This document shows positions 7,101 to 28,100 of a DNA stretch of 64,000 nt, in pieces. The stretch is from Ovis canadensis (Eukaryota > Chordata > Mammalia > Artiodactyla > Bovidae): the NCBI RefSeq assembly GCF_042477335.2, contig NC_091249.1, positions 50,762,001 to 50,826,000 of the forward strand, read 5' to 3'. Numbering within the stretch: the first letter of the stretch is position 1; each line of letters begins with the position of its first letter. The notes under the pieces were generated by a model. It was not told the DNA's origin and searched no databases. It saw only the letters and a list, made by a program, of their open reading frames with translations. A program made the translations under genes and the position numbers.

Positions 7101-10100
7101 GTTGGTCTCCTCAACACTTACGTTGTTCACAGCTTTATTTTGTGGCTAACAAAGCTAAAAGGAAGATTCTTGTGATAAGACTGCTATGTCTTAGATTTCT
7201 TAAATGACCTAATGTACTCTCCAGTGGTTCAGCAAACATGTGGGAAGAGAGAGAGAGAAACTAAATAAGGGGTAAATCTGCATGAAGAGTATCAGGAGTT
7301 CTTTGTTCTGTACTTGCAACTTTTCTGGCATTTGAAATGGTATCAAATAAAGAATCAACCCAGACACTGCCTGATTGTTCTCCTGAGACGCTATGCCAAC
7401 TTGCATTCCTGTCCAGGCACTCCTGAATTTGTTTTCTCAAACTCCCACGCTTTCTGGCTCACCTGGGCTTGCTTCTCACTTGCAGGTGCAGAGGGAAATG
7501 CAGGTGATCGTAGAGGACAGAAACGACAATGCACCTGTTTTCCAGAGCATAAGCTTCTCCACCAACGTCAGCGAGGTAACATCTGCCCTACCAGGGTGGG
7601 TGTATAAAAAGCAGACATCCCACAAATCTGCTCAGAGTGGAAAGGACCGGAGACAGTCAGCAGGTCATCCAGGACTGGGAAGAGTGCCTCCTAGAAAGGG
7701 CAGCTGCAGGAACCAAATTAAGGGGGTTGCATGTGACCCCATGTACAATAGTTACAAGCAACATTTTTCAATCCATCACACTGGATTGGAGTTCATTAAG
7801 TTATGATCATCCCAGGTGGAGAGGAAGAAATTGATTTTCTCATGTGTCTGGACATGTGAATGGTCTATCTGGCTTCAAACATGGCTGGATCTAGGCACTC
7901 AAGCCAGTCATCAAGAAGAGACTTCTTTCCACCTTGCACCTCTGTGACTCTTGTTGCCTTCATCCTGGGCCTGGGGGAGAAGTTCTCTCTTGTGATGATG
8001 AAAGTGCCCCCAGCAGCTCCAGGCTCACATCCCACTGGCTTTGAATTGCAACACAGACTGTCTCTTTCTCAGTGGTCCCAACCCACACCCCAGGGCTGAC
8101 TCTCACTGACCCATTGTGGGTCGCGTGCACATGCCAGCATTGTTTGCTGGGCTTCCCAGGTGGCTCTAGTGGTAAAGAATCCACCTGCAATGCAGGAGAT
8201 ATAAGAGACCAGGGTTGATCCCTGGGTCGGGAAGATCCCCTGGAGAAGGAAATGGTAACCCACTCTAGTATTCTGGCTTGGAAAATCCTGTGGACAGAGG
8301 AGCCTGTTGGGCTACAGTCCATGGGGTCACAGAGTCGGACATGACTGAAGCGACCTAGCATGCATGCATGTCCATCAGCTGAGGGGTGCGGCATGCTCCA
8401 GTTGTCAAAGCTGGCATCGTGGGCCTTCCCCTTCAGCAAGGGTGACAGCTTGACTTGAACTGCTTGGGCAGGGAGGAGGTTCTCCAGTGGTCCACAAGCA
8501 GGAAACACACCACTCCTGAGTCTTCATTACTACACGGATTCAAAGACCTGAGGGGTGTGCCCTACCCCCCAGGCCAGACAAGAGGCTGGTGAGGCCCAGA
8601 CAGACCTTCAACACGCTCTGATCGAATGCCTACTATGTGTCTGGCACTGTCGTTGGTGCTGAAGATACCTGGAGATGATAGCCTTGGTTGCCACCCTCAG
8701 TAGCTCACATTGTAGTGAAGATCACAGATACTAATGAACAAAACATTAAACAGATAGGATTATTTCAGAGGGTATTGTGCTCAGTGAAGAGCATAATGGG
8801 CTGCTTACAGGTTGAGCCAGTCAGGAAAGTCTTCTCTGGGTGGGTGACATCTGAGCAGAACTAAATGTCAAGGAGCCTGCCTGGGCTGCTTCAGGAAAAG
8901 GATTTTCCAGGCAGGGAATAGCAACTGCTCTGAGGTGTGAATCAGCCTGGAGAGTTGTAGGCATAGCAAGAAAGCAGCTGTGCAAGGAGGGTGGAGTGTG
9001 AGGAACAGGTGAGGTCAGAGAGGTGGGCCTGACCCCAGAGGTCCATGGAGGCAGTCTGGACTATATTCTGAGTGGAATGGGGGAACCACTGGTGGATTTT
9101 GAGCATGAGAGTGATGTGGTCTGGTTCAGGATTTTCAGAGATCTCTCTGGCCCCCTTGTGGAATTAGTGAGTGTGTGGACAGGTCCTGGGGCAAAGGCAT
9201 CCAAAAGAAACTTTCAGCTCTGAAGAGTACTGTCTGCAACCTGGGCTGGAGGCTACAGAGAACCCACAGGGAAGTTTAAGCAGGGGAGTGGCAAAACCTG
9301 AGTTCTGGAATGATCATTTATACTGGCCCTGAGGGGCTCAGCAAATCAGAAGCTAGTTCATGTGGTGAGGGGGCTGCATCGGAGAGAGGAGACGGGGAAA
9401 CTGCTTCCTGCCGATGTCCAGATGCCCCCAGAGGCCCAGCCCAGGGGAAGAAAAGGGGGCACCTGTGGAACAAACACAGGGATTCAGGTTCTGGAAGGTC
9501 TGTCACTCTCCCCGTGGTAGGGCTGTGGGCCCTGGAACTCCAGGTTGGAGCATGTGCTTGGGCATGAAGAAAATGGATTGGAAAAAAAAAAAAAGAAAGA
9601 AAGAAAATGGATTGGAACTCAGAGTTGATGAAACCTTTTGTTATAGAGGGGCTTCCCTGGTGGCTCAGAGGTTAAAGCATCTGCCTACAATGTGGGAGAC
9701 CTAAGTTCAATCCCTGCGTCGGGAAGCTCCCTTGGAGAAGGAAATGTCAACCCACTCCAGTATTCTTGCCTGGAGAATCCCATGGACAGAGGAGCCTGGT
9801 GGCCTCAGTCCACAGGGTCTCAAAGAGTCGGACACGACTGAGAGACTTCACTTTCACTTTCTTTTGTTACAGACCCTGCCGGTGGGCTCCGTGGTGTTAT
9901 CTGTGCTGGCCACTGACAAAGACACAGGCTCCTCCGGAGCGGTGGTATACTCCATAGAAAATGTGAGTGTGTATGGTCCACGTGGGAGTGTGGGCGCTGC
10001 CGCTCCTTGTGGCCACCAGGGGGCAGCATCTCCCACACAACCTGCAGGCACCTTGCAGACCAGGAGCTCTGCCATGGCCCAGCCCTGGTCCCCACACCGT

Positions 10101-22100: not shown

Positions 22101-25100
22101 GCATTTGGTCAGTGGCCTGGGGAAGGCCAATAGAGGTCATGGAGGGGCCAGGCTCCCAGGCTACCCTAGCTTCAGATTCCTGCTGGGGATGGAGGGGTGC
22201 CTGGCCTGGCCCAGCTGCCAGAGTTTGTTCACTCCGTCTTGCTCCCAGGCCAGAGATGACGACTCAGGGAACAACGCGGCCATCCTGTTCTCCATCCTTC
22301 AAGTGGATTTCATCGCTAAGGACGGGGCCGTGACCGCTTTCCAGGGCTTCTTCCGGGTCTCCACTTCCTCGGAGGCCAGTGTGTTCACTGGCAACATTGA
22401 GTAACTGCGGGCAGCCCCTGGACAGGGGTGGGGGAGCCAAGCGGGGCCTCAGGGCAGTGAGTTCCCCATCCTAGGAGGGGTCCAGGGAGGTTCTGAGAGG
22501 ACTCCAGCTTGGGTTTCAGAACTGAGTGGTGCCCTCCTACCTTCCGTAGCCTGTTGACCAGCCTTGATTCCACTCTCCAAGGCACCTACCAAGTGACGGT
22601 CAAGGCCCAAGACAATCCTTCTGAGGGTCTTGCCCAGGAAGCCAGCATCACCCTAAACGTGAGTGTTAGGTTCTGGCTCAGTTCCCAGCGCCCTCTGCCG
22701 GCCCCAGGGTCCCTTGCGTCTCATCTTCCCCACGTCCCCCTCCCATAGCTCTTCACCGTGGACCAGAGTTACCGTGTGAGGCTGCAGTTCTCACTGAGCA
22801 AGGAGGAGGTGGGCGCCAACTCGGAAGAGATTAAGGCGTAGGTCTCGGGAGCCAGGGGGGTGGGTAGCCTGTGGGGAAGAACAGGGCTTGGGAGCCTAGT
22901 CCCTGACAGAAATCTGAATGGAATATCTTTCAACCCTGTCTGTGACCCACGTTTGATCTGGTCCTTGTCTTTGACCCTATACCTGTACCTGCACTTCCAT
23001 TCTGCATGCCCCCAGAAGCCTGTGGTTGGCTGGGCAGAGATAGGCCTAAATAGGGCTGCCACATACAGTTGCAAAGGCAGTACACTGCACAAGGGCACTC
23101 TGCTTGCTAAACTATAAACCCAGTCCTAAAGGAAGGGGCTTCCTTGTCTAATTTGTGCAAGAGTGCTACTTGCTTAGCCAGTGGAGCTGTCCAGAGGAGG
23201 TGACCCTCACACAATCCCTAATTTCACTGCCAGAGCCCTGGCCACAGGCCTGGGCTAAGGCCCCTACCCCAGCCCTCCGTGACATCTGCCCCCTTTGCAG
23301 GGCTCTTGCTCAGGCAACCAGGACTACTGTCTACATTGTGGACATTCAGGACATAGCCTCCCCGGTTCGGTGAGTGCCCACTCGGTGGATGGGGCAAGGA
23401 AGAGAGGAACAGCAGCAGGGCTGTGGCTGGGTGGTCCTGGGCTGTGGGCTTCACCTCTGCCCCATTCCAGGGCCCGAGGACGTTCCTACCTTGATGCCTA
23501 TTTTGTCTTCTCAAATGGGTCGGCCTTGACCCTTGACCAGCTGAATATGTGAGTGGGGCTGCCCTTGGGGTGGGCAGGAGGGTAAGCAAGAAGCCTGGGG
23601 GATGCCAATGTCCCTCGGGCCTGAGTGGGGCTTTGTGGCCAGGATGATCCGGAATGACCAGGACTCCCTGACGCAGCTGCTGCAGCTGGGGCTGGTGGTA
23701 CTGGTGAGTGTTGGCAGGACAGAGGTAATGGGGGAGCAGGAAGGCGGGAGACTGACCCCACAGCCTCCTCCCATCACATTCCTTCTTCTCCAGGGCTCCC
23801 AGGAGAGCCAAGAGTCGGAGTCACCGGACACACTCCGCAACGTCACCATAGGACTGGGAGTGGCTTTGCTGCTGGTCATTGTGATCTTTAGCACGATCAT
23901 CATGTGTACCCAGAAGAGGTGCTGCTCCCATCACCCTCTGTGTCTCCAACCTCCCCTCTCTCACCACCCAAGATATCTAGGGGTAGAGAGACCTGGGGCT
24001 TAGGTGTCAGGTACATCTGTATTCAATCCCCAGTGACTCCTTATGACCCCTTGGGTAGGTCATCTCCCCTTCCCAAGCCTCAGTTTCCTCATTTGCAGAA
24101 TAGGCTTGATGCTACATTCCCCAAATCATTTCAGGGATCCATGTGCGTCTCATACCAGCAGACATCTGGCATATGTTGCTGTTGTTCAGTCACTCAGTCT
24201 TGTCTGACTGTCTGCAACCCCATGAACTGCGGCACCCCAGGCTTCCTTGTCCTTCACTATCTCCCAGAGTTTGTTCAAACTCATGTCCGTTGAGTCGGTG
24301 ATGCCATCCAACCATCTCATCCTCTGTTGCCTCCTCCTCCTGCCTTCAATTTTTCCCAGCATCAGGGTCTTTTCCAATGAGTCAGCTCTTTGCATCAGGT
24401 GGCCAAGGTATTGGAGCTCCAACATCAGTCCTTCCAATGAGTATTCAGGGTTGATTTTCTTTAGCATTGACTGATTTGATCTTCTTGCATTCTAAGACTC
24501 TCAAGAGTCTTCCCCAGAATCACAGTTCAAAAGCATCAATTCTTCAGTGCTCAGCCTTCTTTATGGTCCAACTCTCACATCCATACATGACTACAGGAAA
24601 AACCATAGCTTTGACTACACAGACTTTTGTCGGCAAAGTGATGTCTCTGCTTTTTAATATGCTGTCTAGATTGGTCATAGCTTTTCTTCCAAGGAGCAAG
24701 TGTCTTTTAATTTCGTGGCTGCAGTCACTGTCCACAGTGATTTGGGAACCCAAGAAAATAGTCTGTCACTGTTTCCACTTTTTCCCCATCTATTTGCCAT
24801 GAAGTGATGAGATTGGATGCCATGATCTTCATTCTTTGAACATTGAGTTTTAAGCCAGCTTTCTTTCACTCTCCTCTTTTTACCTTCATCAAGAGGCTCT
24901 TTAATTCCTCTTTGCTTTCTGCCATTAGAGTGGTATCATCTGCATATCTGAAGTTGTTTAAATTTCTCCCAGCAATCTTGATTCCAGCTTGTGAGTCATC
25001 CAGCCTGGCATTTCATGTGATGTACTCTGCATATAAGTTAAATAAGCAGGGTGACAATATACAGCCTTTATGTACTCCTTTCCCAATTTTGAACCAGTCC

Positions 25101-28100
25101 GTTGTTCTAACTGTTGTTTCTTGACCTGCATATAGGTTTCTCAGGAGGCAGGTAAGGTGATCTGGTATTCCCATCTCTTTAAGAATTTTCTACAGTTTGT
25201 TGTGATCCATAGTCAAAGGCTTTAGCCTAGTTAATGGGGCAGAAGTAGGTGTTTTTCTGGAATTTCCTTGCTTTCTCTATGATCCAGTGGATGTTGGCAA
25301 TTTCATATCTGGTTCCTCTGCCTTTTCTAAAACCAGCTTGTACATTTGGAAGTTCTTGGTTTATATGCTTTTGAAGCATAGTTTGAAGGATTTTGAGCAT
25401 TACCTTGCTAGCGCATGAAATGAGCACAACTGTATGGTAGTCTGAACATTCTTTGCCATTGCCTTGCTTTGGGATTGGAATGAAAACTGGCCTTTTCCAG
25501 TACTGTGGCCACTTGTGGCTGAGTTTTCCAAATTTTCTAACATATTGAGTACGGTACTTGAACAGCATCATCTTTTAGGATTTGAAGTACCTCAGCTGGA
25601 ATTCCATCACCTCCACTAGCTTTGTTCATAGTAATGCTTCCTAAGGCCCACTTGGCATCACACTCCAGGATGTCTGGCTCTAGATGAGTGATCTCATCAT
25701 CAAGCTTATCCAGGTCACTGAGACCATTTTGTAGAGGTCTGTGTATTCTTGCCACCTCTTCTTAAACTCTTCTGTTTCTTTTAGGCCCTTGACATTTCTG
25801 TCCTTTATTTTGCCCATCTTTGCATGAGATGTTCCCTTGGTATCTCTAATTTTCTTAAAGAGATCTCTAATCTTTCCCATACTACTGTTTTCCTCTATTT
25901 CTTTGTGTTGTTCACTTAGGAAGACTTTCTCATCTCTCCTTGCTATTCTCTGGAACTCTGCATTCAGATGGGTATATCCTTCCTTTTCTCCTTTGCCTTT
26001 AGTTTCTCTTCTTTTCTCAGCTATTTGTTAGGCCTCCTCAGTCAACAACTTTGCCTTCTTGCATTTCTTTTCCTTGGGGACGGTTTTGGTCACTGCCTCC
26101 TGTACGGTGTTACAAACCTCCATCCATAGTTCTTCAGGCACTCTGTCTACCAGATCTAATCGCTTGAATCTACTCATCACCTCCACTGTATCATCGTAAG
26201 TGATTTGGCTTAGGTCATACCTGAATGGTCTAATGGTTTTCCCTACTTTCTTCAATTTAAGTCTGAATTTTGCAATAAGGAGCCTATGGTCTGAGCCACA
26301 GCTCCAGGTCTTGTTTCTGCTGACTGTAGAGAGCGTCTCCATCTTTGGCTGCAAAGAACATAATCAGTCTGATTTTGGTGTTAACCATCTGGTGATGTCC
26401 ACGTGTAGAGTCATCTCTTGGATGACTCTTGGGTTTTTGGAAAAGGGTGTTTGCTATGACCAGCATGTTCTCTTGGCAAAACTCTGTTAGCCTTTGCCCT
26501 GCTTCATTTTGTATTCCTAGGCCGAACTTGCTTGTTTCTCCAGGTATCTCTTGACTTTATACCTTTGCATTCCAGTCCCCTATGATGAAAGGGACACCCT
26601 TTTTTGTTAGTTCTAGAAGGTCTTGTAGGTCTTTATAGAACTGATCAACTTCAGCTTCTGTGGCATTAGTGGTTGTGGTATAGACTTGGATTACTGTGAT
26701 GTTGAATAGTTTGCTTTGGAAGCAAACTGAGATCATTCTGTTTTTTTTTTTTTTTTAGATTTCATGCAAGTACTGCATTTTGAACTCTTTTGTTGACTAT
26801 GAGGGCTATTACATTTCTTCTAAGGGATTCTTACCCTTAAATATGCCCGTTCCTATCCATTTTAGTTCACTGATTCCTAAAATGTCGATGTTCACTCTTG
26901 CCATCTCCTGCTTGACCACATCCATGGTCATGGACCTAACATTCCAGGGTCCTATGCAATATTGTTCTTTACAGCATCGGAGTTTACTTTCACCACCAGA
27001 CACATCCACAGCTGAGGGCCAGTTGTGCTTTGGCCCAGCCTCTTCATTCTTTCTGGAGCTATTTCTCCACTCTTCCCCAGTAGCTTTCTGGACACCTACC
27101 AATCTGGTGGGGCTCATCTTCCAGTGTTATTCACATCTTTTTGTCTTTTCATACTGTTCATGGAGTTCTCAAGGCAAGCATACTAGAGCGGTTTGCCATT
27201 CCCTTCTCCAGTGAGCCATGTTTTGTCAGAACTTTCCACCGTGACCCGTCCGTCTAGGGTGGCTCTGCACAGCATGGCTCGTAGTTTTACTGAGTTACAC
27301 AGGCTGTGATCTGTGTGATCACTTTGGTTAGCTTTCTGTGATTATAGTTTTCATTCTGGAGTCTGTGGGACTGTAGTTCTTGCTTCTTCTGTCTGTACTC
27401 TGATGGAAGAAGGTAAGAGGCTTGTGCAAACTTCCTGATGGGAGGGACTGGCTGTGGGAAAATTTGGGCACCAATCATCCTCTGTTGGGCAGGGCCATGC
27501 TCAGTAAATCCTTAATCCAATTTTCTGCTGATGAGTGGGGTGCTCCCTTCCTGTCAGTTGTTTGGCCTGAGGCAGCCCAGTCCTGGAGTCTACAGGCTGT
27601 AAGGCGGGCTCTAAGGCAGCAAGCTGCAAAAGGGCTTATGCCAACATACCCCTCCTAGGATTGCTGCCGCCAGTGCCTGAGGGTGACAGTGGGCTGGCAG
27701 TGGCCTGACTCGGGGGCACATGCTATGCCTTTAATAAATGCTGCTTTTTCCCCCCTTTCTAATGCATATGGAGGCAGTAGACATACCTGGGTGTGATGCT
27801 AGGCTTTGCCACTGATCAGCTGTGTGGTCTTCAGCAATGATTTCCCTTCCGTGATTCTTACCCTCTGTAAGATGGAGCTAACACTCCACCAGCAAAGTGG
27901 TTGTGAAATCACATTCTCAGGGCCTGTACTGGGCACACAGTAGGGGAATAGGGAAAGTAGTGACCTTCCGTTCTGGGTTCCTCATAGCTACCAGCGGAAG
28001 CTTCGGGCTGTGAAAGCTGCCAAGGAGGCCCGGAAGACAGCAGTGGGGGTGATGCCCCCAGGCTCTGCCATTCCTGGGACTAATGTGTACAACACTGAGA

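Follow-up and report, generated by a model that had tools for sequence, protein, structure and literature searches.

To our knowledge, retroelement insertions at splice acceptors are encountered mainly as disease or phenotype alleles. In the 64,000-nucleotide stretch of Ovis canadensis DNA analyzed here (the window), which covers C5:50762001-50826000 of its genome, a complete SINE lies directly in front of a coding exon of CDHR2. The locus raises the question of how an exon can keep a 3' splice site after a mobile element has inserted across it.

The exon, the SINE and its flanking repeats

The gene was identified by its translated exons, which are colinear with the chains 5czr and 7n86, which we take to be human CDHR2, and 5cyx, presumably mouse CDHR2 (E values of 3.5e-88, 6.4e-88 and 2.6e-81, respectively, with the next-listed molecule at 9.7e-67), and which encode N-terminal cadherin repeats orthologous to those of human and mouse. 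In our exon model the intron that received the SINE extends from 7576 to 9872 on the + strand (gt at 7576, ag at 9872, phase 0). Coding exon 6, placed by human/mouse colinearity, occupies 9873 to 9962 (+ strand, 90 nt) and lies inside a cadherin repeat; a Pfam Cadherin match covers this exon together with the following one, and the junction VSE/TLPVG is gapless in the alignments to 5czr, 7n86 and 5cyx. Colinearity upholds the gene named in the initial annotation, whereas the label of exon 6 holds for coding exons only: acceptor-like sequence, seen by eye in front of the ATG exon, suggests that a 5' non-coding exon may renumber it as exon 7. A search with the exon 6-7 region returned the window's own locus as its sole match, and the genome contains the junction word a single time when up to one mismatch is allowed. 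In genome_contigs, a 20-letter junction pattern matched twice, each time in a bacterial record whose likeness to the exon, as judged by eye, ends after the word; viral_contigs gave 0 matches.

Positions 9648 to 9860 (+ strand) hold a full-length SINE in sense orientation to the gene, which we take to be Bov-tA; the family start GGGCTTCCC is at 9649, and the G at 9648 is perhaps an extra base. The element has high identity over its full length to many dispersed genome copies (93% over about 213 nt for the closest non-self copies among 40 candidates scored), which bears out the earlier description of a complete Bov-tA. It ends in a CACTTT-type 3' tail, TTCACTTTCACTTT (9847 to 9860, + strand), a pyrimidine tract carrying two TTCAC motifs with their A at 9850 and 9856. 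With regard to a tRNA-derived head, the Bov-tA consensus contains GGTTCGATCCC, which resembles a pol III B box; ARAGORN found no tRNA over 9400-10100. A separate sample of 80 tail-motif places, drawn from the first 100 listed of 6383, comprised 11 full-length elements (by our own rule), 66 partial ones and 3 without a match; it was left out of the duplication and age work.

Against a consensus of 37 genome copies selected by similarity, the element shows 13 differences in 202 positions and one indel, or 8 differences in 186 positions outside CpG. At 6.4% from its consensus it is not young. Assuming neutral substitutions at about 2e-9 per site per year, a divergence of 4-6% suggests an insertion age of very roughly 20-30 million years, a guide only, because the consensus is biased to similar copies. 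The insertion is expected to be common to other bovids. Bov-tA elements are described as ruminant SINEs that depend on RTE/BovB and have a LINE 3' end in common with it (PMC8620236, PMC5322556); a giraffe study dates the entry of RTE into ruminants to about 50 million years ago and reports that Bov-tA is not currently retrotransposing in cattle (PMC8620236).

Two further features of the gene were noted. At 9567-9617, 17 nt upstream of the SINE target, two identical 17-nt copies of AAGAAAATGGATTGGAA surround a 17-nt A-rich stretch. This could be a duplication that arose locally, or the retroposition of a tail alone with a target duplication of its own. A long stretch at 24180-27220, in a late intron of the gene, resembles by eye a reverse-oriented LINE, which we take to be of BovB type, the partner of Bov-tA.

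The SINE is adjoined on both sides by 13-nt direct repeats on the + strand, CTTTTGTTATAGA at 9635-9647 and CTTTTGTTACAGA at 9861-9873, spaced 226 nt apart and identical at 12 of 13 positions. Two words at 9635-9646 and 9861-9872 had been singled out before, and both are present; the repeat is better described as 13 nt long with a single mismatch. The upstream copy contains a putative relict acceptor AG at 9645-9646 and the exon-side copy the presumed working AG at 9871-9872. The repeats span the acceptor AG, in agreement with the earlier proposal that the 3' splice site itself was the duplicated target, and they also take in the first base of coding exon 6, which places the insertion across the intron/exon boundary. 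The accompanying notion of an original acceptor that moved away from the exon is not a claim that can be made for the upstream copy, as both copies come from one target. Their single mismatch, TAG in the upstream copy and CAG in the exon-side one, would be in keeping with decay of an unused upstream copy.

An equally good match (13 nt, at most one mismatch) was found at 57 of 400000 random points within the window, using the same spacing and allowing a few shifts. Confident target-site duplications (TSDs) flank 14 of 39 other Bov-tA copies picked by SINE body alone; their lengths are 8-15 nt, a range that the 13 nt at CDHR2 fit. A study of Bov-B insertion reports a Tn-TA signature, in which the TSD starts with A after T and a T run lies about 10 nt upstream (PMC13295347). 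The CDHR2 target lacks this signature: its TSD starts at C/C, and the 25 nt in front of it contain no three consecutive T. A T/A start is found at 7 of the 14 other copies, and having C/C in its place makes the CDHR2 target atypical. If the words were not a TSD, the upstream one being a chance match or the SINE having come by another route, this atypical 5' end and the mismatch would be accounted for, as would a second Bov-tA, at the CLCA locus described below, that has no visible TSD. The rarity of comparable matches at random points, and repeats that adjoin the SINE ends at a length usual for the family, nevertheless make such a reading extremely improbable.

Homing of Bov-tA to pyrimidine tracts by tail homology was also considered and is unsupported, with CTT in the first four TSD bases of only 4 of the 14 confident copies. 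The TSDs of these copies are AT-rich (A 0.34, T 0.38).

Strength of the two acceptors

Acceptors were scored with a weight matrix trained on 29 further acceptors of CDHR2 within the window, which were picked by reading the exons and not from annotation. The AG at 9872 scored 6.29, which ranks first among 210 scored intron AGs and exceeds 17 of the 29 other acceptors in a leave-one-out comparison. With 29 training sites only, the lowest true acceptor fell to -8.9 when left out, so a low score does not rule out use; and 21 sites at which a Bov-tA tail precedes NCAG without a recognized exon scored 3.8 to 11.1, so scores alone are no proof of splicing. Taking conservation and scores together, the AG at 9872 is apparently the one in use. 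The second-best AG of the intron by this matrix, at 9520 (3.81), lies 353 nt ahead of the exon and may be a cryptic acceptor.

The AG at 9872 is preceded by 17 pyrimidines in 20 nt, and the SINE tail contributes 10 of the 20, as anticipated by the initial annotation, which had made the tail part of the pyrimidine tract. The A residues of the two TTCAC motifs in the tail lie 23 nt and 17 nt ahead of the exon, within an AG-free zone starting at 9845. The duplicated 13 nt themselves bring with them the AG and, in a short T-rich stretch, one half of the pyrimidine tract; they do not contain the branch-point motif YTNAY. A candidate ancestral branch-point A lies at 9628 (+ strand), outside the duplicated 13 nt, in a TTGAT 19 nt from the upstream AG; no other YTNAY lies within 60 nt of that AG.

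Joining the flanks to reconstruct the empty site gave a score of -2.32 with CAG and -4.38 with TAG, and putting poly(A) in place of the tail dropped the exon-side repeat to -4.29. Random 8-nt contexts placed before the repeat (20000 draws) averaged 2.05, and 5.3% of them reached 6.29. A good score is thus possible without this particular tail: the SINE tail is a favorable context, but others would do as well.

The upstream AG at 9646 scored -5.42 (rank 43 of the 210), with pyrimidines at 12 of the preceding 20 nt versus 17 of 20 at 9872. Splicing to 9647 would add 226 nt, giving an exon of 316 nt versus 90 nt, and the read-through frame would meet a TGA at 9839-9841 (+ strand) after 64 codons, all of them in the insert's upstream part and ahead of any frameshift effect. 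This stop falls 121 nt before the exon's donor. Stops more than 50-55 nt before a junction are subject to NMD, and a transcript from the upstream AG fits a predicted NMD substrate by that rule; our computation thus reproduced the added length, the stop and the predicted NMD-type isoform proposed earlier. Were this AG used to a useful extent, CDHR2 would have a regulated poison isoform, for which the AG, the short T run and the TTGAT motif are still in place and the stop is suitably distant from the next junction. The low score and rank, the poorer pyrimidine content, the 316-nt exon and the presence of TAG where the exon-side copy has CAG render such an isoform very unlikely.

Comparable insertions in the literature and in the genome

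The kind of event seen here is known; for its sense-oriented, RTE-tail form no report was found in a search of one PMC library, in which no title or abstract among those listed concerned this CDHR2 insertion or Bov-tA tails as pyrimidine tracts of ancestral exons. A close published parallel is that of dog merle PMEL. There, a SINE lies at the intron 10/exon 11 boundary with a 15-bp TSD holding the original acceptor, and the reversed element supplies a poly(T) that acts as the tract in a length-dependent manner (PMC7349775). CDHR2 shares with it a boundary SINE, a TSD spanning the acceptor AG, an exon-side copy with the presumed original acceptor, and SINE tail sequence that would serve as pyrimidine tract. 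The merle insertion differs in being a SINE-Cf in reverse with poly(T), tail-length-dependent splicing and a coat phenotype, segregating in dog breeds, whereas the CDHR2 element is in sense, RTE-dependent and CACTTT-tailed, and appears old.

In human NF1, a sense AluY with an 11-nt TSD sits in the intron 14 acceptor, at c.1642-1_1642, and in a patient the exon that follows is skipped; the authors describe disruption of the splice site (PMC3219598). On our own reading of Table 2 of that paper, the TSD includes the AG, and an A-rich tail would stand in front of the duplicated AG. So read, the NF1 allele resembles CDHR2 as a sense SINE at an acceptor with a TSD that takes in the AG, and is unlike it in its presumably A-rich tail and in the skipping of the exon. 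Both of these published acceptor insertions are harmful (PMC3219598, PMC7349775), and a 90-nt exon could be skipped with the frame preserved, so the SINE might likewise have broken the CDHR2 acceptor, leaving the exon skipped or the gene impaired in carriers. We regard this as highly improbable: the exon has an open frame and a sequence close to those of human and mouse, its acceptor scores best of the 210 intron AGs, and a SINE 6.4% from its consensus is not a young insertion.

A genome search with the 29-nt tail-acceptor junction, allowing at most 2 mismatches, found four places, CDHR2 among them. The second, at C1:64651198, leads into a 225-nt open exon (328-552 of locus L140, G000:C1:64651227), the product of which has a match in the VWA domain of CLCA (6pyo, E 3.7e-18); a Pfam search of the same product gave no match at 0.001. 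One of the other two places looks non-coding by eye, and the last (L161) is without AG, ending in CTG. At the CLCA locus a full-length Bov-tA, also in sense, places its tail and CTTTTCTTACAG directly before the acceptor of the coding exon, as at CDHR2. It differs from CDHR2 in that a flanking duplication was looked for and none was visible, and in that some 90 additional bases adjoin the SINE. The tail-acceptor arrangement is present at least twice in the genome.

A tandem CLCA paralogue at C1:64597257, 54 kb away, has the same exon behind the acceptor TTTTTTGTTACAG, without the SINE and without the extra bases beside it. The two exons differ at 14 of 225 positions, and 9 of the 14 changed codons are non-synonymous. 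Exon identity is 94%, versus 80-85% in flanking collinear blocks over 600 bases; both exons thus seem constrained or converted.

A broader pattern (tail, 8 nt and NCAG) matched 26 genome places, with 0 for the reversed-pattern control; CDHR2 is not among the 26 because of a G in its tract. A coding exon was recognized at 1 of the 22 places inspected, the CLCA one, which is a lower bound, as L141, L163, L175 and L176 carry short open stretches to a donor-like site. A 60-aa open stretch at L171 had no match in Pfam or PDB. At another locus (L178, match near G000:C19:49973835), a Bov-tA has CTACAGGGGT in both flanks, an acceptor-like duplicated target; no coding exon was recognized there.

A proposed route to exon survival

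In the mechanism we propose, target-primed reverse transcription would have integrated a Bov-tA RNA across the intron/exon boundary of coding exon 6, in the same orientation as CDHR2. Through staggered cuts, 13 nt, namely CTTTTGTTAYAG and the first base of the exon, would have come to stand on both sides, with the AG staying joined to the exon; the presumed ancestral empty site would be a single CTTTTGTTAYAG ahead of ACCCTGCC. The former branch-point region and the upstream tract would have been left 226 nt away. The CACTTT-repeat tail would then have replaced the upstream half of the pyrimidine tract, now missing, and contributed branch-like sites in the form of TTCAC, and the 3' splice site would have been rebuilt in full and, by score, improved. 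The upstream AG would be a decaying relict, productive only of an NMD substrate if used.

A TSD combined with a pyrimidine-rich tail best explains the survival of the exon, a reading to which we assign a probability of roughly 0.78 and which includes a presumed empty site, presumed use of the AG at 9872 and candidate branch points. The initial annotation had credited survival to target duplication; the duplication stands, but probably not as sole cause, because the 13 nt contain no branch-like motif. Rescue by the duplication alone, with the tail incidental, could draw on the AG and the 10 nt of original tract still joined to the exon, on the existence of weak acceptors in CDHR2 (down to -8.9 when left out) and on the mean of 2.05 for random contexts. 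It is nonetheless unlikely, given the missing branch-like motif, the rise from -2.32 at the empty site to the present 6.29, the CLCA case with a tail and no visible TSD, and the exon skipping that followed an 11-nt TSD at the sense AluY of NF1 (c.1642-1_1642; PMC3219598). The tail is probably as important as the duplication, since the 13 nt are without a branch-like motif and duplication of the AG in NF1 still led to skipping; nor is a visible duplication a constant part of the arrangement, as CLCA lacks one. The likelihoods attached to the combined reading and to its alternatives are not mutually exclusive.

The feature is ordinary in its parts and unusual in their combination: it looks like an apparently tolerated, apparently old SINE insertion at a seemingly constitutive acceptor in an open gene, with a testable cause of tolerance. 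If TSD and tail acted together as proposed, the duplication would keep the AG, and whether the remaining signal is restored would depend on the type of tail. A natural comparison is available in the two CLCA paralogues of this one genome, of which one has the SINE and the other lacks it. More tentatively, and at somewhat less than even odds, sense RTE-dependent SINEs with CACTTT tails may be portable 3' splice sites, carrying a branch motif and a pyrimidine tract that could replace the upstream half of an acceptor without loss of the exon; they would then offer ruminants a recurrent route of acceptor turnover that is unavailable to sense A-tailed SINEs such as Alu.
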